Shown here: in pieces, positions 3,933 to 52,885 of the stretch | How the letters are laid out: every line of letters starts with the position of its first letter | How positions within the stretch are numbered: position 1 is the stretch's first letter | Source of the DNA: Desulfonatronum lacustre DSM 10312 | GTDB taxonomy: Bacteria > Desulfobacterota > Desulfovibrionia > Desulfovibrionales > Desulfonatronaceae | Direction of reading: 5' to 3' | Length of the DNA stretch: 64,000 nt | Assembly: GCF_000519265.1 (NCBI RefSeq) | Contig: NZ_KI912608.1 | Location: 385,665-449,664 of the forward strand | Position numbers and translations under genes: made by a program | Notes under the pieces: generated by a model | Told to the model about the DNA's origin: nothing | Databases searched by the model: none | The model's input: the letters and a program-made list of their open reading frames with translations, nothing else

Positions 3933-5151
<1,219 letters not shown>

Positions 5152-5323
5152 GGTCAAGCGACTCCAGGTTTGAGGTAGGCTTGAAAAGGGACAAAGAAAT
5201 CATCTGGTGCGCGGTGACCGGCAACGCCGGGTTGATCGTCTCCGGTGGGCCGCACCTGTTGAACTGTGTTCATGCACCTGTTCCCATCGTCTCCTCGGCG
5301 GTCCGGCTCCGGCGCTTCACGTA

Positions 5324-5824
5324 TCAAGAACGCCTCCGCAGAGGATGATCCGTCGGCAGCATTTCCCGCATCTCGCGCAGGAAGTCGTCGGCGTCCTTTT
5401 TCGTGTGATACTGCTTGCGCGTTTTCTCCGTGAGGTGACGCTGGCCCTTGATCCCGCAGTTTTGCAGATGATCGGCCCACGCCCGCAACTGCCGGGAACA
5501 GCTCTCGGCCAGGGATTTCAAATTTGAGATTTGAGATTTGAAATGGGCGTAGCCCGGTCGGCGTTCCAGAAAGCAGAGCATGGACCGGACCTCCCCGGCG
5601 GACCCCCTGGCGATGTACAGAAAGGCCAGCAGTTCGTTGGTCGTGCCGCGCTCGAACCCTTCGGCGATATTGTTGGAAACCGACAAAGCCGCCCGCTCCA
5701 ACTGATCCCGCAAACTGAAACTGCTCCGCCACTCTTTCGACTCGGTCATGTCGTACACGCCTTCAGCCAGCCGGATGGCCTCCTTCCAGACGGGAAGGTC
5801 TTCGAAACGGTTGAAGGTGGGCAT
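5324..5824 (-). CDS. four-helix-bundle protein (S23/IVP family) inside the cas operon
   Basis: A 166-residue protein of the family first known from 23S rRNA intervening sequences. Hallmarks are FEDLPVWKEAIRLAEGVYDMT, LRDQLERAALSVSNNIAEGFERGT, and FLYIARGSAGEVRSML. It is related in fold to Avd, the RNA-binding accessory protein of diversity-generating retroelements. It lies 13 bases after cas6 with its own AGGAG site and is oriented with the operon. The loop before the last helix carries FKSQISNLKS, encoded by a GATTTGA micro-repeat. C-terminal residues beyond about 125 are extra. Function is unknown. Confidence 0.8.
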   Translation of the reverse strand: MPTFNRFEDLPVWKEAIRLAEGVYDMTESKEWRSSFSLRDQLERAALSVSNNIAEGFERGTTNELLAFLYIARGSAGEVRSMLCFLERRPGYAHFKSQISNLKSLAESCSRQLRAWADHLQNCGIKGQRHLTEKTRKQYHTKKDADDFLREMREMLPTDHPLRRRS

Positions 5825-13939: not shown

Positions 13940-14902
13940 TCAAAAATATTGTTTCGCCGCGGCCAGGATTCGTTCCCGCACGGCCAGGCGCAGTTCTTCC
14001 GGCTCCAGCACCTCGATGTCCGGGCCGTACTTGAGGATTTCCATGACCAGTTCGCGTTGGTCCCCGTAGGGTAGGCGCAGTTCGTAGGCCTCGCCGCACC
14101 ATGCGCCGGACTGGTCCGGGTGCCAGACCTCGCTTTCCACCCAGCGGGCAGCCTGGCCGGTGAAGCGCAGGGTTGCGGTCCGGTCCGGATTGCGCAGGAA
14201 AATGCCGAAGGAGTCGTGCATCAGGGCGTCCAGGGTTTTGTTGTCCGGCATGTTGGCCTGTTCGGGCAGCACCTGGGCTTCGACGATCCGGTCCAGGGCG
14301 AAGGTGCGGCGGTCGTCGGCCTGGTCGCAGTGGGCGAGGAGGTACCAGGCGTCCCGGTAGCGGAGCAGGCGGAAGGGGTGGATGGTTCGTGGGCTTGGGG
14401 TCTGTTTGTCCGGTCCGTGATAGAGCAGCCGGATCTTGCGGGAGCCCAGCAGCCCGGCGGCCAGGGCTTCGAAGACCGGCGGATGGACCGGACGGGGGCG
14501 CATGGGATGCAGCAGAACGCGGTGGATCAAGTCGTCCACGTTGAGCCCCATGTCCTGCACGGCCAGGCGCAGGCGCTTCAGGAGATCTTGCAACGGCCGC
14601 TGGAGCAGGCCGGGTTGGGTGGACTCCAGGAACTGGATGGCCGCCAGCACGGCGTAAAGTTCGGACTCGTTGAACCAGAATCCGGGCAGCTCGAAGGCCC
14701 CGGCCGCCGGATCGTACCGATAGCCTCCGGCGTCGCGGTCAAAGACGATGGGCGCGCCCAGCATGTCGCGCATCTCGGCGATGATCCGTTTGACCGTGGC
14801 CTGGGAGCATTCCAGTTCGTCCTGGATGCGGGCGCGGGGAACGGGCTGGTTGTGGGTGTGAAAGAGCCGATGCAGGGCGTAGATGCGTTGGGCGCGGTTC
14901 AT
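13940..14902 (-). CDS. WYL-domain transcriptional regulator
   Basis: A 320-residue regulator. Residues 1-60 form a winged helix-turn-helix (QRIYALHRLFHTHNQPVPRARIQDELECSQATVKRIIAEMR). The middle is a WYL domain with YHGPDKQTPSPRTIHPFRLLRYRDAWYLLAHCD and the ALDRI motif. A WCX-type C-terminal extension follows. WYL domains sense nucleotide or oligonucleotide ligands, and WYL regulators are often linked to CRISPR-Cas. It sits directly upstream of the ORF6N-cas3 operon on the same strand, so it may regulate it. ATG 14902 has a GGAGGG site. Confidence 0.9.
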   Translation of the reverse strand: MNRAQRIYALHRLFHTHNQPVPRARIQDELECSQATVKRIIAEMRDMLGAPIVFDRDAGGYRYDPAAGAFELPGFWFNESELYAVLAAIQFLESTQPGLLQRPLQDLLKRLRLAVQDMGLNVDDLIHRVLLHPMRPRPVHPPVFEALAAGLLGSRKIRLLYHGPDKQTPSPRTIHPFRLLRYRDAWYLLAHCDQADDRRTFALDRIVEAQVLPEQANMPDNKTLDALMHDSFGIFLRNPDRTATLRFTGQAARWVESEVWHPDQSGAWCGEAYELRLPYGDQRELVMEILKYGPDIEVLEPEELRLAVRERILAAAKQYF

Positions 14903-14963
14903 GCCTCCCTCCTGTGGAAGTCAGTGGTGGCTTGGCGCGCCGCGATCTTTGGTCCGGCGCGGG

Positions 14964-15731
14964 TCAGTGGTCGTGGGGCAGGGCGTGGGGGATCAGGGAG
15001 TGGGGTTTTTCCTGGCCGTGGGCGGTCATCAGGCTGTCGTCGGCCATGATGGTTCGGGCTGGTCCGTGGGTTACGATCCGGCCCCGGTCCAGGAGCACGA
15101 CCCGAGTGCAGACTTCCAGGGTCAGTTCCAGGTCGTGGGATGCTATGAGCAGGGTCTGATCGGATTGCTTGAGCAGGCCGATCAGGCGGCGACGAGCCCG
15201 GATGTCCAGGCCGGCGCTGGGTTCGTCGTAGATGATCACCTTGGGGTGCATGGCCAGGGCTCCGGCTATGGCCACGATCCGTTTTTCGCCCTCGGAAAGG
15301 TGGTGGACCGGACGTTGGGCCAGGTCCTGGGCGCCTACGGTGACCAGGGCGGTCTGGACCCGCTCGGCCACCTGTTCCTGGGTTAATCCCATGTTGCGCG
15401 GCCCGAAAGCCACGTCCTCCCAGACCGACGGGCAGAAAAGCTGGTCGTCGGACTTCTGGAAGACCAGGGCGATTTCGGGATTGAAGCTCCCGCCGACCAC
15501 TGGCCGGTCCTGGACCAGGACTTCGCCGGAGGTGGGCTTGAGGATGCCGCTGATGATCAAAAACAGCGTGGTTTTTCCCGCGCCGTTGGGGCCGATCAGG
15601 CCGAGGCGTTCGCCGGGGGCCACGTCCAGGCGCAGGTTTTGGAGCACGTCCGGCTTGTCCGGGTAGGAGAAGCACAGATCGTTGAGCCGGATGGCGGATG
15701 TCGGGGATGAGGTCACGGTGGGCGGGGTCAC
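14964..15731 (-). CDS. cbiO: nickel/cobalt ECF transporter ATPase CbiO-like
   Basis: A 255-residue ABC ATPase. Walker A is GPNGAGKTT, the Q-loop is VFQKSDDQLF, the signature is LSEGEKR, Walker B is VIIYDEP, and the H-loop is ASHDLELT, all typical of energy-coupling-factor ATPases. A GTG at 15731 (or 15716) is the probable start, because the frame farther upstream is made of the dispersed repeat. The gene follows cbiM and cbiQ on the same strand, with the repeat between it and cbiQ. Confidence 0.88.
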   Translation of the reverse strand: MTPPTVTSSPTSAIRLNDLCFSYPDKPDVLQNLRLDVAPGERLGLIGPNGAGKTTLFLIISGILKPTSGEVLVQDRPVVGGSFNPEIALVFQKSDDQLFCPSVWEDVAFGPRNMGLTQEQVAERVQTALVTVGAQDLAQRPVHHLSEGEKRIVAIAGALAMHPKVIIYDEPSAGLDIRARRRLIGLLKQSDQTLLIASHDLELTLEVCTRVVLLDRGRIVTHGPARTIMADDSLMTAHGQEKPHSLIPHALPHDH

Positions 15732-45848: not shown

Positions 45849-45946
45849 GGTGAGCGATTCTTCCTGGTTGAGGGTGATCAAAAAGGCCGCGTAACCGAAG
45901 TATGTTAAGAGACCTCTCAAGATCGCACAAGCCCCACTTTTCCTCC

Positions 45947-46987
45947 CTATTGCGCCACCACGGCCTTCCTGATCAGTTCGAACAACGCATCCACGTCCTC
46001 CAACCCTCCCTCGTGGTACAGCACCACCTGGACCCGGGCGTCGGGCAGGATTTTGACCAGGTAGATCAGCGGGATTTCACCGGCGCCCACGGATTCGAAC
46101 ATGACTTGGCGTTCGTCGGGCAGGAGCGGATACGGCACGTGGTGCGAGCGCTTGAAGCGCAGCACGCTGCGCTGGGTGTCGCCCACGCCGATGCCGATCA
46201 TTTTCAGGCGCGGTCCGACTCCGGGGTCGTTGTGGAGCAGGGTGAACAGACGGTTATATTGCTCCACCTCCTGGACGCACTGGTGGCAGTGCTCGCCGTA
46301 GTACTTGAGCAGGACGAACTCCGCGGGCACGTCGGCCAGGAAAAAATTGGCCGATTCCTGCTCCAGCCCCAGGTAGGCGAAATCCTCCGTTCTGTCCGAG
46401 GCGGTGAGCACGCAGGGCGGGAAGTACTGACCGGGCTGGAGCCGATGAGATCGGACTTCGCAGACTTGAAGGTCCGGGTAGTGTTCGCGCCAGGCGATGT
46501 ACCCGGCGGGGTAGCGGATGACGTTGGCGTATCCCAGGCGCACGGCCCAGGCTGCGGCGATCTCGCTGAGCAGTCAGCGAAAGTCCCGGCAGTAGATCAC
46601 GATGGGCCGATCCTTGTCCGGCCCGAAGGTGTCCAGCATGGCTTGGCGGCGCTCGGGGGGCAGGTCGCCCCGGTCGCGCAGATCCACGGGCAGGCTCACG
46701 GCCTCGGGCATATGGCCGGAAACGAACTCGTAGGAAAAGCGCACGTCCACCAGCAGCACGTCAGGATTTTCGTCCATCAACCGACGCAGTTCCGGGGTGG
46801 TGATCAGGGTGTAGCCGTCTCGGTCCGCGCTGCGCTGGGCCTGGGTGAACAGGGGCGAGGTTTCTTCGGCTGCCTGGACAACGCTGCCCTGGGGCGCGGC
46901 CAGGGCTGGCCAGGCGCTGGAGAGCAGGAACAGGGATACGGCCAATGCCTTGAAACGGTTGGCGAAGTGGTTTCGATTCATGAGCAT
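45947..46987 (-). CDS. predicted selenocysteine rhodanese-thioredoxin fusion (TGA at 46574-46576)
   Basis: 346 residues if the internal TGA (codon 138) is read as selenocysteine. A signal peptide (MLMNRNHFANRF, cleaving after ALA) is followed by a rhodanese domain with LLVDVRFSYEFVSGHMPEAVSLP and IVIYCRDFR-U-LLSEIAAAWAVRLGY. The TGA aligns with the second Cys of YCGGxHC in the paralogue 47093-48388, giving C-X4-U. A thioredoxin/TlpA domain follows with a CHQC motif and cis-Pro EIPLIYL. A 7-bp hairpin with loop CGTGC starts 22 bases after the TGA. Alternatively it is two broken pieces; frame continuity argues against. Confidence 0.72.
46533..46551 (-). promoter_or_regulatory. candidate bacterial SECIS hairpin
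   Basis: On the minus strand CCTGGGC, loop CGTGC, GCCTGGG forms a 7-bp stem (two G-U pairs). The apical loop begins 29 bases after the TGA, within the roughly 16-37 base window known for bacterial SECIS elements, and has a G in its first two positions. Confidence 0.55.
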
Positions 46988-47015
46988 GGAAAGCCTCCCG
47001 TGTCGTGAAGTGAAC

Positions 47016-47092: not shown

Positions 47093-48388
47093 TTAATTGA
47101 TCGTGAATTCACCCGCGGGAGTGTAACTGACGTTGGCGTCGACATAGTAGACGTCCTTCAGGTCTGGACGCATGAACTGGAAGAGGTAATAGGCTTCTCC
47201 ACTGCGCGCGCCCGTGGAGCAGATGAAGACGATGGGCTTGTCATCCGTGCTGAAGACAGCGATCTGGTCTTCCAGTTCGTTCACGGTCATGTTCAGGGCG
47301 CTGGGGATGTGTCCGGCGGCGAACTCTGCCGGGGAACGGACGTCGATGAGCTGGATGCTCCCCGGGTTGTCCTTCATCAGTTGGACGAAGAAGTCGTTGT
47401 CAATGGTCCCTTCAGCCGAACCGCTTTTCAGGGTGCCTTCTTCAGCCGGAGCCTTGGGCGCGGCCGGGGCCGCGACAGTCATGTGCGGGCCGTCGGCGGT
47501 CCAGACCACGTAGCCGCGTTCCACCCACTCGGGATCCCCGGCGGGGTAAACGGCGATATTGGTGTAGCCCAGGGCCTCGGCCTTCCAGGCGGACTGATGG
47601 CTCAAGGGGCAGTGCGTCCCGCCGCAATAGAAGATCAGTTTGGTGTTTTTGTCCGCTGGCAGGACCTCGGCGGCCATCCGGTCGAACTGGCTGTCCGGCA
47701 GGCTGACGGCGGTGGGGATGTGGCCCACGTCGTAGCGGGGCTGCTTGGGCCGGGAGTCGATGATCATCACGTCGGTCACCGGAGTGGCCGAGAGCACGGC
47801 CCGGGCCACGATGGGCCGGACGGTGTCGATGGTGATCTGGGTGTGGTAGGGTTCAGGAACCTGGGCCTTGTCCAATTCGGGGAGCGGGGTGCGCACGTCG
47901 CGGGCGGTCCAGACTTGGTAGCCCAGCTTGACCCATTCCGGATCCCCGGCGGGATACACGGCCACGTTGGTGTAGCCCAGGGCCTCGGCCTTCCAGGCGG
48001 ACTGGTGGCTCAGGGGGCAGTGCAGGCCGCCGCAGTAGAAGACCAGCAGCGTGCTTTTGTCCGCGGGGAGGACTTCCGCGGCCCGACTGTCGAACTGGCT
48101 GTCCGGCATGCTGACGGCGGTGGGGATATGCCCGACGTCGTAGCGGGGTTGTTTGGGCCGGGAGTCGATGATCATGAAATCCGTGGGCGATTCGCTGCGC
48201 AGCATGGCCTCAAAGACCAGCGGCTTGACGAACTCGATGTCCACCAGGGTGTGGTAGGGTTCCGGGACCTGGGCCGGGTCCAGGTCGAACTTCGCGGTTT
48301 TGGGGCCGTGGTGCCCGGCGCAACCGGCCAGAAACAGGACCGCCAGGGCGGAGATGATCAGCCGCATGGTAATCGAATATTTTCGCAT
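47093..48388 (-). CDS. triple-rhodanese lipoprotein
   Basis: A 431-residue predicted lipoprotein (lipobox LFLAGC) with three rhodanese domains. Domain 1 (about 35-160) and domain 2 (about 175-300) are near-duplicates, each with IIDSRPKQPRYDVGHIPTAVS and YCGGxHCPLSHQSAWKAEALGYTN; the active-site Cys is the first of YC-GG-x-HC. Domain 3 (about 325-425) is a plainer rhodanese with FICSTGARSG. It probably carries sulfane sulfur in the periplasm beside the Mo enzyme. Confidence 0.88.
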   Translation of the reverse strand: MRKYSITMRLIISALAVLFLAGCAGHHGPKTAKFDLDPAQVPEPYHTLVDIEFVKPLVFEAMLRSESPTDFMIIDSRPKQPRYDVGHIPTAVSMPDSQFDSRAAEVLPADKSTLLVFYCGGLHCPLSHQSAWKAEALGYTNVAVYPAGDPEWVKLGYQVWTARDVRTPLPELDKAQVPEPYHTQITIDTVRPIVARAVLSATPVTDVMIIDSRPKQPRYDVGHIPTAVSLPDSQFDRMAAEVLPADKNTKLIFYCGGTHCPLSHQSAWKAEALGYTNIAVYPAGDPEWVERGYVVWTADGPHMTVAAPAAPKAPAEEGTLKSGSAEGTIDNDFFVQLMKDNPGSIQLIDVRSPAEFAAGHIPSALNMTVNELEDQIAVFSTDDKPIVFICSTGARSGEAYYLFQFMRPDLKDVYYVDANVSYTPAGEFTIN

Positions 48389-48526: not shown

Positions 48527-49252
48527 TCACCCTTCGACCTTCCTTTCCTCCCCAGCCACTTCCTCGTACCACAACTGGTGATGGTGCTTGGCGTAGTGTT
48601 CGGGAACGGTGCCGGTGAACATGGACTTGAAGGCCGGCTTTTCCTCCTTGGAAATGGCGGCCATGTAGATGTGCACCAGCATTCCGGCGGTGACCAGGCC
48701 GACCGTGAGGTAGTGGATGGTCCGGGACCAGGCCGCGGGATCAGGGTTGTCGAGCATGATGGGGGAGAGGAACATGATCACGCCCGTGACCACGATGACG
48801 ATCCCGCCCAGCACCGTGGCCTGGGCGAAGAGCTTCTGCCCGAAGTTGTAGAAACCCTGGGGCGGCATGTCCGGGGTCATGCCGAAGCGCTGAAAGCCCT
48901 TCTTGCCCATGGTCATCTTCAGGTTCATCTTCATGAACCAGGTCATGTCCCTGGACGGGGAGACGGTGAAGACTTCTTTCAGGAAGAGCCATGTCTCCCT
49001 GGGCTTGAGCAGCACGTAAAGCACGAACACCCCGGCCCAGATCAGGCCCAGATACTGGTGTACGGCCAGTAGGTTCTCGCCGCCCCCGAACAGGGCGCGC
49101 ATCAGGTTCGGCCACCACGCACCCAGAGGATTGAGCTGGTCGTTCTTGATCAGCCCCAGGCCGGTGAGCAGCAGGGCGATCCAGCAGAAGGCGTTGAACC
49201 AGTGGATGAAAATGGACAACTTGTCATGTCGATGAATCAGTTTTTCACTCAT
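48527..49252 (-). CDS. membrane cytochrome b subunit (FdnI/PhsC-like)
   Basis: A 241-residue di-haem-type cytochrome b with four to five hydrophobic segments. Likely haem-ligand His residues are in IHWFNAFCW, VHQYLGLIWAG, TIHYLTVG and GMLVHIYMA. It links the periplasmic Mo enzyme and Fe-S subunit to the quinone pool. ATG 49252 follows AAGGTG. It lies 11 bases after the Fe-S gene. Confidence 0.9.
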   Translation of the reverse strand: MSEKLIHRHDKLSIFIHWFNAFCWIALLLTGLGLIKNDQLNPLGAWWPNLMRALFGGGENLLAVHQYLGLIWAGVFVLYVLLKPRETWLFLKEVFTVSPSRDMTWFMKMNLKMTMGKKGFQRFGMTPDMPPQGFYNFGQKLFAQATVLGGIVIVVTGVIMFLSPIMLDNPDPAAWSRTIHYLTVGLVTAGMLVHIYMAAISKEEKPAFKSMFTGTVPEHYAKHHHQLWYEEVAGEERKVEG

Positions 49253-49263
49253 GGCACACACCT

Positions 49264-50040
49264 TTAGTCCTGCTTGGAGACTGTCGATTCAGGGGGGTTT
49301 GCTTCGTGCTCGTCGTCCTCTGGATCTGGCGGGTCCGGAGCAAAGGCCTGCTTGGCCCACATCCCGGCAACGCCCAGGGCGGACAGCCCCACGGCGACCG
49401 TGACCAGCGGATTGACCAGCGAGGCCATGACTGAATAGGCCTGTGGATACTCCACGTCTCCTGGCCAGTCCGCGGGCTCCGTGGCCGCGATATAGTACAG
49501 GTTGGGCTGGGTATCGATGTTTTTACTGGTCACCCGCACCGTGGTTTTTTCCCGCAGCAGCCGGGAGACTTCGCTGTCCGGATCGTTGAGATCCCCGAAG
49601 ACCCGTGCCTTGGTGGGACAGGTGTCCACGCAGGCCGGAACCAGTCCCCGGGCCAGTCTGCCCGAGCTGAAGCAGAAGTCGCATTTGTCCGGAACGCGTT
49701 TTTCCGGATGCCGGTACCGGGCCCCGTAGGGACAGGCCCGCACGCAGTTGCCGCAGCCGATGCATAGGGATTCATTGACGTGGACGATCCCGGTTTCCCG
49801 ATCCTTGAACGTGGCCCCGCTGGGACAGGCCGTGACGCAGGTGGGCACGTCGCACTGCATGCACCCGCCGGGCTGGAAATGGGTCCGGGTCAGCTTGCCC
49901 AGGGAAAAGTCCGGGGTGGTGTGCTTGATCCAATTGCGCCAGTACCCCTTGGGCACGTTGTTCTGGACCTTGCAGGAAACCATGCAGCCCTTGCAGTCGA
50001 TACAGACGGAAGAGTCCACGACCATGGCGTATTTTTTCAT
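49264..50040 (-). CDS. 4Fe-4S subunit of a molybdopterin oxidoreductase
   Basis: A 258-residue electron-transfer subunit. Four ferredoxin-type clusters are visible: CIDCKGCMVSC, CMQCDVPTCVTACP, CIGCGNCVRACP and CDFCFSSGRL...CVDTCP. A C-terminal hydrophobic anchor (SLVNPLVTVAVGLSALGVAG) precedes an acidic tail. It matches PhsB/PsrB/HybA proteins. The first base of its start overlaps the last base of the catalytic gene's stop. Confidence 0.93.
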   Translation of the reverse strand: MKKYAMVVDSSVCIDCKGCMVSCKVQNNVPKGYWRNWIKHTTPDFSLGKLTRTHFQPGGCMQCDVPTCVTACPSGATFKDRETGIVHVNESLCIGCGNCVRACPYGARYRHPEKRVPDKCDFCFSSGRLARGLVPACVDTCPTKARVFGDLNDPDSEVSRLLREKTTVRVTSKNIDTQPNLYYIAATEPADWPGDVEYPQAYSVMASLVNPLVTVAVGLSALGVAGMWAKQAFAPDPPDPEDDEHEANPPESTVSKQD

Positions 50041-52232
50041 CAGCCCACCTTCCTGCTCACGGTTACAAGGGTCTCATGCATGGCCATGTTGCCGGAAATA
50101 TGGTCCACGTGATCCTCCAGGACTTCGGCGATGCTGGCTCCCCGGTTGTGCACCAAGCGCTGGCCCGGAGAGAGCGCCCCGAAGCCGGTGGCCATGTACA
50201 CGGTGTCTTTTTCAATGCCCTCGAAGAATTTCAAGGCCAGTTCCACCTGGGCGACACCGCTGGTCACGAAGACCCGCTCTCCGTCGCCAAAGCCCATCCG
50301 CGTGGCCGTTTTGGGGTGAATCCAGAGGGTGTTTTCCTCTTCGAACTCAATGAGCAGGGCGTTGTTGGTATTGCTGTGGGTGAAGAAGGCCGTGCGGCCC
50401 ACCACCAGACGGAGCTTGCCCTCTTCCCGACGCGGTGGCTTGTACGTCGGCATGGGGTCCAGGCCCATGTTGGCGTAACGCTGGTTGTAGAGCTCGATCT
50501 TCTGGGCCTGGGTCTTCAGCGGCACGTCGAAGTAGATGCCGTAAACCTTGCTGGGGTTGTAGTAGACCCCGTCTTCCTTGATGGCCTGGGCCGCTTCGGG
50601 GATGCTGGCCAATTGCCATTCCCGGTACTGGTCGATGGTGAAGTCGAACGTTTCCGGAAAACCCAGGCGCTTGGACAGCTCGGTACATATCCAGCGCATG
50701 TCCCGGGACTCGTACATCGCCGGGACCACGGCGTCGCGCCAGATGGCGCAGGCGCAGGCCGAGGAGCCCTGCAGGGCCGAGACCGGGTCGTTGCGTTCCA
50801 GAAAGCTGGGAGAGGGCAGGAGCAGGTCCGAGTACCAGGCCGTGTCGGTCATGGCGATGTCCGCGTTGACGATGAAGTCGAGATGGTCGAGCATCTCGAT
50901 GGTCTTCTTGCGATTGGCCGCGGTCTGCATGAAGTTGGTCTTGAAGGTGAACCAGCCCCGGATGGGGTAAGGCTCTTCCTTGATGATCGCGTCGCGCATC
51001 AGCTTGAACGAGCCCTCGTGATGGATCAGGCCCGGGGCCATGCCGTGGTCGATGCGGTCGTCCGGGTTGTCGTCGTACCAGGGGATGTCGAAGTACGGGG
51101 CGCGTACGCCGACTTCCCGTGACGCCAGGATTCCGCCGGGGCGGTCCCAGTTGGCCAGCAGGGCGTTGACGATGGCCATGGAGCGGCGAATCTGGGAAGA
51201 ATCCTCATAGTCCGAGGTTCGTCGTCCGGTATAGACCATGGCCGTGGGGGCCGCGGCGGCGATTTCCCGGGCAATGCGCCGGATGTCCTCGGCCGGTATT
51301 CCGGTCTCCCCGGCGGCCCATTCCGGGCTGTATTCGCGGACATGGGCGCGCAACTCCTCCAAACCGAAGAGCATTTCGTCCGCGAACTGGCGATCGTACA
51401 GCCCCTCGTGAATAATCACATGGGCCAGGGCCAGGAAAAAAGCCATATCCGTGTGCGGCCGGATGGAGAACCACTCGTCGGCCATGGCCGCGGTCTTGGT
51501 GTAGCGCGGGTCCAGGACGACAATCTTACAGCCGTTTTTGCGGGCCTCCATCAGGTCGATGGTGTCCGGAGTGATGATGGCCTCAAAGGGGTTGGCCCCG
51601 GCGATGATGATGTACTTGGTGTACAGCACGTCCGGGTAGGGAGTCTCCCCGAAGGTGTCCAGATAGGCCCGGGCGTTGCTCAGCAGGCACAAGGTTTCGT
51701 GGGAAGTAATGTTGTAGGAGCCGAAGACCTCGGCGAAGCGGATCAGGAACTGGGACTGCATGTCCGAGCCGGGTGAGAACATGACTCCGCAGCGGGTATA
51801 CTTTTCAGCGATGCGCTCAAACTGCTCGGCGGTGTGGTCCAGGGCCTGGTCCCAGGAGAGGCGCTGCCACTTGCCCTCGCCCCGGGCCCCCTTGCGCAGC
51901 AGAGGGTGTTTGAGTCGGTCCGGGTCGTAGATGTGCGCCGTGGCCGCGTTGCCCCGGGCGCAGAGCATGCCTCGGGATTTGAGGAATTTCGGGTTGGGGT
52001 CCAGCTTGATCACCCGACCGTTCTGGACCCTGGCGATCATCCCGCACCGGTTGAAACACATGTCGCAGGCCGTGTAGTGATCGGTGATCGGCCCGGCCTG
52101 AAGGGCCGGAGCCGCGGCGTGTCCGGTGGACACCAGGCCCGTTAGGGCCGGGACCCCGGCCGCGGCGGTCATGGCCGCCGCGGATGCCCGCAGGAAATTA
52201 CGTCGTGAAAGTGTTTTCGTCGTCTCATCCAT
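50040..52232 (-). CDS. molybdopterin oxidoreductase, PhsA/PsrA-like
   Basis: A 730-residue Tat-exported enzyme (signal TLSRRNFLRA). The N-terminal 4Fe-4S motif is CDMCFNRCGM...GMLCARG. A Cys in TSHETLCLLSNA is at the Mo-ligand position typical of thiosulfate and polysulfide reductases. Other marks are VVLDPRYTKTAAMADEWF and the C-terminal dinucleotide-binding region. With its Fe-S and cytochrome b partners it is a periplasmic sulfur-compound reductase or oxidase; thiosulfate or polysulfide is inferred, not proven. Confidence 0.9.
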   Translation of the reverse strand: MDETTKTLSRRNFLRASAAAMTAAAGVPALTGLVSTGHAAAPALQAGPITDHYTACDMCFNRCGMIARVQNGRVIKLDPNPKFLKSRGMLCARGNAATAHIYDPDRLKHPLLRKGARGEGKWQRLSWDQALDHTAEQFERIAEKYTRCGVMFSPGSDMQSQFLIRFAEVFGSYNITSHETLCLLSNARAYLDTFGETPYPDVLYTKYIIIAGANPFEAIITPDTIDLMEARKNGCKIVVLDPRYTKTAAMADEWFSIRPHTDMAFFLALAHVIIHEGLYDRQFADEMLFGLEELRAHVREYSPEWAAGETGIPAEDIRRIAREIAAAAPTAMVYTGRRTSDYEDSSQIRRSMAIVNALLANWDRPGGILASREVGVRAPYFDIPWYDDNPDDRIDHGMAPGLIHHEGSFKLMRDAIIKEEPYPIRGWFTFKTNFMQTAANRKKTIEMLDHLDFIVNADIAMTDTAWYSDLLLPSPSFLERNDPVSALQGSSACACAIWRDAVVPAMYESRDMRWICTELSKRLGFPETFDFTIDQYREWQLASIPEAAQAIKEDGVYYNPSKVYGIYFDVPLKTQAQKIELYNQRYANMGLDPMPTYKPPRREEGKLRLVVGRTAFFTHSNTNNALLIEFEEENTLWIHPKTATRMGFGDGERVFVTSGVAQVELALKFFEGIEKDTVYMATGFGALSPGQRLVHNRGASIAEVLEDHVDHISGNMAMHETLVTVSRKVG

Positions 52233-52540: not shown

Positions 52541-52885
52541 TTATCCGCACTTGGCCGGAGTCGGGGAGTCCATGGCTCCGTCATACAAGTACTGATAGAT
52601 GTCCAGGCGATCCTGGTCCGAGAGCTTCTCGCCCCAATGTTCAACACAAGGCATTTCCGTGTAGGCGTCGAATACCGCTTTCCAGTCGGCCTGGGTCTTG
52701 GAGTCCGGGCCGAGGTAGTGTGAAGGAACAGCTCCCACCGGGTTTTCCATGTGACAGGGGCGGCATTCCTGGCGGAACAGGAACCGGCCTTTCCGGGCGT
52801 TGCCGGCTTCAGCGGCGACGGAAATGCCAATGTAGGATGCCAGGATGACCGCGACGCCGATGCCCATCAATGTTTGCTTTCTCAT
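52541..52885 (-). CDS. class I cytochrome c
   Basis: A 114-residue periplasmic cytochrome. A signal peptide ends near ISVAAEA; the single haem motif is CRPCH (residue about 43) and a distal Met (DAYTEMPCVEHWG) is available. It is the first gene of the Mo-enzyme operon and a likely electron donor or acceptor for it. A sigma-54-type promoter lies about 65 bases upstream. Confidence 0.9.
   Translation of the reverse strand: MRKQTLMGIGVAVILASYIGISVAAEAGNARKGRFLFRQECRPCHMENPVGAVPSHYLGPDSKTQADWKAVFDAYTEMPCVEHWGEKLSDQDRLDIYQYLYDGAMDSPTPAKCG

Follow-up and report, generated by a model that had tools for sequence, protein, structure and literature searches.

On the reverse strand of the window, the 64,000-nucleotide stretch of the Desulfonatronum lacustre DSM 10312 genome analysed here, a frame of 346 residues runs from 46987 to 45947, ends in TAG, and is open throughout save for one TGA (46576–46574, residue 138). 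The question is whether this codon ends the protein, marks a damaged or misread gene, or is translated, and in the last case what kind of protein results. An earlier note on this DNA had described the frame in the same way and predicted selenocysteine (Sec) at the TGA, a prediction that is now strongly supported. The reading favoured here, with a probability of roughly 0.82, is that the gene encodes an exported selenoprotein in which UGA is read as Sec138 and closes a six-residue rhodanese loop (C133-R-D-F-R-U138), followed by a ResA/TlpA-like domain with a CHQC motif, and that it belongs to a thiosulfate-reductase-like gene block (Table 1).

Table 1. Features of the predicted selenoprotein gene and its gene block, in window coordinates.
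Feature	Position	Strand	Remark
Small c-type-cytochrome-like protein (PF13442)	52541..52885	−	First gene of the conserved block
PhsA-like molybdopterin oxidoreductase	50040..52232	−	Best NCBIfam match thiosulfate reductase PhsA
PhsB-like 4Fe-4S protein	49264..50040	−	
PhsC-like cytochrome b (PF01292)	48527..49261	−	
Companion triple-rhodanese lipoprotein-like gene	47093..48388	−	Two CX4C domains; lipoprotein look read by eye
GGAGG, Shine-Dalgarno-like	46994..46998	−	6 nt 5' of ATG; read by eye
Gene of the predicted Sec-containing rhodanese–TlpA/ResA-like protein	45947..46987	−	346 aa + TAG stop
Probable signal peptide, residues 1–30	46898..46987	−	Ends in SAWPALA, followed by A; read by eye
Rhodanese domain, residues 64–168	46484..46798	−	PF00581
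Cys133 codon, rhodanese catalytic-position Cys	46589..46591	−	Invariant in 38 aligned fusions
In-frame TGA, predicted Sec138, second position of CX4U	46574..46576	−	TGA in 56/63 loci, TGC/TGT in 7/63
Candidate SECIS hairpin, 7 bp, loop CGTGC	46533..46551	−	22 nt past the TGA
ResA/TlpA/DsbE-like thiol-disulfide oxidoreductase domain, about residues 183–344	45956..46441	−	Model and structure matches
CHQC redox motif of the TlpA-like domain, residues 234–237	46277..46288	−	CxxC in 33/38 aligned fusions

If the TGA were a true stop, the locus would hold a short rhodanese and a separate TlpA-like gene downstream of it, and a mechanically called open reading frame does restart after the TGA, at a GTG (46543). 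This GTG lies within the rhodanese domain, however, and that domain is continuous through the TGA: as the earlier note had claimed, one rhodanese fold spans the codon, and the Pfam match to PF00581 reaches 57.3 bits against a cut-off of 22.2. The parts before and after the TGA are under similar coding constraint: between the window gene and its close relatives (6 pairs), dN/dS is 0.10–0.34 in the first part and 0.09–0.20 in the second. In addition, seven orthologues of the class have Cys at this position and their frame reads through. A true stop is thus very improbable.

Conservation of the site was followed in 297 genomes of the class, of which 187 gave some match at E <= 0.001. Every match down to E = 2.9e-25 was counted, which gave 61 loci, one per genome and the window's own included (two of them, L031 and L032, are identical); weaker matches resemble other rhodanese or TlpA genes and were left uncounted. 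Two named MAG loci, L002 and L004, bring the number to 63 (L003 was omitted as the same record as L006). Here, the codon at residue 138 is TGA in 56 loci, TGC in six and TGT in one, and in the 61 class loci alone it is TGA in 54 and a Cys codon in seven. Cys homologues, which the earlier note had proposed to look for, are therefore present, and no other residue occurs at the site. A family outside the order (f21) adds five more fusions, two with TGA and three with Cys. A quick tree of the resulting 68 loci, built on 133 columns and with many of its forks unresolved, requires 6 changes between Sec and Cys; the nearest named relative in it is the Desulfonatronum MAG locus L002, with 88% identity in its best segment. 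The identical position of the TGA in dozens of genomes excludes a sequencing error. A single stop in an otherwise open frame is also what a pseudogene or a misread base would look like, but with the same TGA in 54 of 61 genome loci and purifying selection after it, the probability of a pseudogene or error is negligible.

The genome, 3.76 Mb in one contig, has the Sec machinery that the earlier note had suggested checking for: selA (E 1.1e-183, above cut-off), selB (365.7 bits, above cut-off), selD (333.4 bits, at G000:C1:15288-16199, L051) and a tRNA-Sec with anticodon TCA. The selD gene has an in-frame TGA of its own; Sec-containing SelD is already known. As selA is above cut-off in all 66 genomes carrying the gene, including those that have Cys at the site, its presence does not discriminate the Sec from the Cys groups. 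It is also conceivable that TGA is reassigned genome-wide to another amino acid or read through without Sec; we found nothing in support of this. TGA serves as the stop codon of PhsA and PhsC in this block, Cys is the only alternative at the site, and next to the full Sec machinery the same genome has TGA in selD and in TsoB, all of which argues against reassignment and leaves it only a very slight chance, below that of a true stop. None of the findings that the earlier note had named as counting against Sec came up. Residue 138 is almost certainly selenocysteine, judging from these comparisons, and the gene is best described as a real, conserved predicted selenoprotein gene.

The gene also contains a hairpin, CCTGGGC-CGTGC-GCCTGGG, with a 7 bp stem that starts 22 nt after the TGA and a G at loop position 2, a geometry that fits the rules for bacterial SECIS elements. 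The earlier note had these features right, but the hairpin is weaker than it implied, since on its own it lies within chance: the share of synonymous-codon shuffles giving an equally good hairpin is p = 0.43, and the fold z-score is 0.33. Rfam gave no match to the hairpin region. With single-sequence significance failing and Rfam empty, the hairpin alone was rejected as proof of a SECIS element. In 59 TGA sequences, four of which are TsoB, the p of the best hairpin has a median of 0.23, and 10% of the values are under 0.05. For 166 control windows the median is 0.55, with 3% under 0.05, and for 7 Cys forms it is 0.40, with 14% (one sequence). The lower values for the TGA sequences are a shift, not proof. 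In seven Desulfonatronum-like sequences all 5 scorable hairpin codons are identical, whereas the remainder of the gene, for the same amino acids, predicts 0.58; the permutation p was printed as 0.0000 (20,000 draws), and as the same when six f3 sequences were added. The same test in group g9 was not significant, with p = 0.55 for 19 sequences and p = 0.11 without three that have another hairpin.

The sister clade has an 8-bp hairpin in which 94.7% of cells are paired and 2 pairs have changed on both sides (3 cells), as counted in 19 chosen sequences (16 from g9, one from g44 and two from g16). Pairing and score together were reached by 0 of 500 shuffles and the pair counts by 13 of 500, and 8 of the 19 sequences have a broken outermost pair. 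Because three sequences with another hairpin (L027, L030, L034), the near-duplicates L011, L015, L021 and L032, and distant f2 sequences had been omitted beforehand, this covariation count leans towards structure. In the window's own clade there is no covariation, because the stem hardly varies there. Codon freezing in the close relatives and covariation in the chosen sister-clade sequences support the candidate SECIS hairpin; the g9 codon test, the window's own clade and Rfam add nothing to this.

What follows the rhodanese domain had been called thioredoxin in the earlier note. An AlphaFold2 model was made from an alignment of 38 of the 44 fused loci (six near-duplicates were omitted) and has a mean pLDDT of 90.7 and a pTM of 0.74. 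Its C-terminal half resembles the ResA and DsbE structures 4nmu, 3gl3 and 1st9 (Z 17.6–17.9, rmsd about 2 Å over 135–140 residues) and, with Z about 16, CcmG; the PDB matches listed for the model are filled by this TlpA-like half. The Pfam match to AhpC-TSA reaches 25.5 bits, just under the cut-off of 26, and the curated ResA model NF002854 reaches 30.2, under its cut-off of 170. By modelled fold and CxxC motif the domain is ResA/TlpA/DsbE-like, which is the more exact description. From the predicted N-terminal signal peptide, the protein looks exported. Its mass had been given as about 38 kDa; the computed value, with Cys substituted for Sec, is about 39.3 kDa for the precursor and about 35.9 kDa without the signal peptide read by eye.

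In the 38 aligned fusions Cys133 is invariant and residue 138 is always Cys or predicted Sec, and 33 of them retain the CxxC of the TlpA-like domain. The five that have lost it (L069, L070, L077, L078 and L079, all from g16) still retain Sec. There are also members that consist of the rhodanese only, in f3, f5 and some f2 genomes; these have CxxxxU, but CxxxxC in L072 and L073. A profile of the C-terminal domain, run against 16 such loci (L097, L100, L105, L107, L108 and 11 shorter ones), found no separate TlpA-like gene beside them, the sole exception being a weak antisense match in L058 (E 1.4e-4) that was taken as chance. Since the g16 fusions lack CxxC, and the members with a rhodanese alone gave no convincing TlpA-like neighbour in the stretches searched, a TlpA relay cannot be universal, and the built-in reductant is dispensable.

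The gene is the last in a block with the order cytochrome c, PhsA, PhsB, PhsC, multi-rhodanese, Sec-rhodanese–TlpA. A cytochrome b is what would be expected of PhsC, the third subunit. The PhsA-like protein scores 504.5 bits with the NCBIfam thiosulfate reductase model, below the cut-off of 694, so that thiosulfate as the substrate is a good guess. In 21 neighbourhoods (16 + 5), most of them chosen to spread across genera, PhsB, PhsC and the multi-rhodanese gene are upstream of the Sec gene without exception, and in all 20 whose contig extends far enough the block includes PhsA and the small cytochrome (L004 starts inside PhsB). Two additional stretches come from f5: in L173, PhsA and the multi-rhodanese gene precede the Sec gene, and in L174 the multi-rhodanese gene is behind it, the sole exception in gene order. 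Over the 61 loci, a multi-rhodanese match is found upstream in 56; among the other five, PhsC is upstream in L064, L065 (the genome of L174) and L081, while L076 and L085 have no Phs or multi-rhodanese genes within the available stretch. Of 21 stretches searched, 18 have a gene for a TorD-type chaperone close by, those without it being L097, L104 and the window (L002–L004 were outside this search).

In two of the 21 stretches searched, L100 and L174, both f5, the neighbourhood also includes a block of YedE, TusA, two small proteins and DsrE (with TorD, L100:8728-12544 and L174:13143-19150). It directly follows TorD in L100, and in L174 TusA and the multi-rhodanese gene stand in between. In L108 a TusA gene adjoins. 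No YTD-like cluster was found in the window or at the Sulf_transp places L176 and L177 of its own genome (a third such place, at 3692693, was outside the search). The block of L100 and L174 has the composition of the YTD (YedE–TusA–DsrE) cluster, which is a candidate for sulfur disproportionation according to the accessible part of PMC12998232.

The multi-rhodanese companion, which the earlier note had placed two genes away, is in fact the adjacent upstream gene (48388–47093). The comparison drawn from it stands: its loops read YCGGLHCPLS and YCGGTHCPLS, so that the TGA in the Sec gene falls on the second Cys of a CX4C pair. In f5 the companion itself has a TGA at the second CX4C position in all four genomes read (of 7), with the motifs FHCQNLAUPLSH in L100 (7131 on), YCMNPGURLSH in L108 (about 9516-8600, reverse strand), FHCQNFAUPLSH in L173 (about 4700-5756) and YCMNPAURLSH in L174 (about 14600-15574). 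Here the same exchange between Cys and Sec is found in the opposite partner. A search across the phylum gave many other CX4U rhodaneses (L139-L157), some of them 450-500 aa long with three rhodanese-like domains, some carrying UxLS, and one (L150) with two Sec rhodanese domains in a single frame. The window's genome also has a true TsoB elsewhere (G000:C1:3034000-3039500; L086:1019-2770, reverse strand), with 971.5 bits for NF045694 against a cut-off of 805, two TGA codons and the motif YUDGLAU.

Comparison across genomes shows the predicted Sec or Cys at residue 138, the invariant Cys133, the fusion and the make-up of the operon. Together these suggest a likely role in periplasmic sulfane-sulfur handling, with Sec resolving a cysteine persulfide. 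The detailed chemistry of Cys133 and Sec138 can be sketched only tentatively. Thiosulfate, polysulfide or a partner would supply Cys133 with a sulfane sulfur. The persulfide formed there would then be attacked by the selenolate of Sec138, so that sulfide is set free or the sulfur is handed on. The product would be a Cys–Sec selenylsulfide, which may be reduced by the TlpA-like CxxC, or by another reductant in members without it. It may also be that Sec is real and the protein is not a persulfide reductase, but either a redox sensor or a sulfur carrier that donates persulfide or selenopersulfide, for example to a partner or into a TusA/DsrE relay. This would suit the TusA and DsrE genes that adjoin in L100 and L174, the TusA gene in L108, and the g16 members that have lost CxxC. 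Against it stand the CxxC kept by most aligned fusions and the example of TsoB, in which the part joined to a similar rhodanese is DsbD, a supplier of electrons. TusA is cytosolic. As the Sec-rhodanese looks exported, a direct transfer between the two is unlikely. A carrier or sensor is less likely than not, but far likelier than any reading without Sec. TsoB, whose rhodanese is similar and carries a DsbD part, agrees with resolution of the persulfide by Sec138 and its reductive recycling. On a wider and again tentative view, a selenium-dependent periplasmic sulfane-sulfur module may be a standard accessory of a Phs-type thiosulfate reductase across the Desulfovibrionales and in at least one family outside them. 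The C/U pair of one rhodanese, in some lineages also that of its neighbour, would resolve persulfides and so supply thiosulfate reduction or disproportionation, and this energy metabolism would then depend on selenium.

Rhodanese-type selenoproteins as such are not new. Zhang and Gladyshev reportedly described a rhodanese-like selenoprotein in 2005 (form 1, UxxS, WP_010941598.1), and Haft and Tolstoy are said to have described TsoB in 2025 as a selenoprotein resembling a rhodanese/DsbD fusion. The protein studied here shares with TsoB a related rhodanese (E 2.9e-26 over residues 41–169), Sec at the second position of the X4 loop and a fusion to a thiol-redox domain. Unlike TsoB, which has UxxxxU with two Sec and a DsbD part, it has CxxxxU and a ResA/TlpA-like part. 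Membership in TsoB was rejected, as NF045694 gives 91.7 bits against the cut-off of 805 and covers the rhodanese part only. The UxxS of form 1 is matched by ULLS in the window and ULRS in most g9 fusions, a comparison made by motif only. With ResA, TlpA and DsbE the protein shares the fold and CxxC of its C-terminal domain, but here this domain is fused behind a Sec-rhodanese and scores under the ResA family cut-off. Table 1 of PMC13188914 lists five rhodanese selenoprotein forms, among them form 1 (UxxS) and form 5 (TsoB; UxxxxU, rhodanese + DsbD); that table has no rhodanese–TlpA fusion, Phs block or Sec companion. Older surveys include rhodanese-type selenoproteins as well (PMC1088965, PMC2398784, PMC5029168 and PMC9312934, in their accessible parts), and a marine deltaproteobacterium has a rhodanese-like selenoprotein according to the available text of PMC8318568.

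Form 1, TsoB and the widespread CxxxxU rhodaneses make the Sec position an already known kind, and this qualifies the claim of the earlier note that the domain pair is undescribed: the fusion is indeed absent from the table just mentioned, and among its matches in NCBIfam 20.0 there is no model of its own. The literature searched, accessible in part, gave no rhodanese–TlpA selenoprotein and no selenoprotein of a thiosulfate-reductase operon, which does not establish absence from print. PhsABC operons and the YTD cluster are similar in that Phs-like genes make up the block and YTD-like genes stand alongside in L100 and L174; they differ in that the accessible text of PMC12998232 names no selenoprotein or TlpA-like rhodanese in either. 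As far as searched, what is new is the fusion of the rhodanese to a ResA/TlpA-like domain and its conserved place behind PhsABC-like and multi-rhodanese genes.

If the favoured reading is right, annotation that stops at the TGA truncates a conserved gene of sulfur-based energy metabolism in dozens of sulfate-reducer genomes. The operon context would then give Sec a concrete role in sulfane-sulfur chemistry, with the catalytic Cys and the Sec that resolves it separated by five residues within one rhodanese loop, and the protein would be a candidate for an uncertain step of thiosulfate reduction or disproportionation. In two genomes this candidate gene adjoins a YedE–TusA–DsrE cluster. The place of the gene beside a thiosulfate-reductase-like operon is a hint that these bacteria rely on selenium for sulfur respiration.

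It is also worth recording some minor observations. A search for defence systems gave no match. Opposite the gene, an antisense frame of 368 aa is open on the forward strand (window 45902-47008), probably as a by-product of high GC. Plasmid relatives amount to 5 records, each with <40% identity across about a third of the protein. Elsewhere in the genome, a YedE-type Sulf_transp match (G000:C1:1516794-1517261, L169) is interrupted by a single TGA in frame; the selenoproteins listed in the accessible part of PMC13188914 include a Sec form of YedE.
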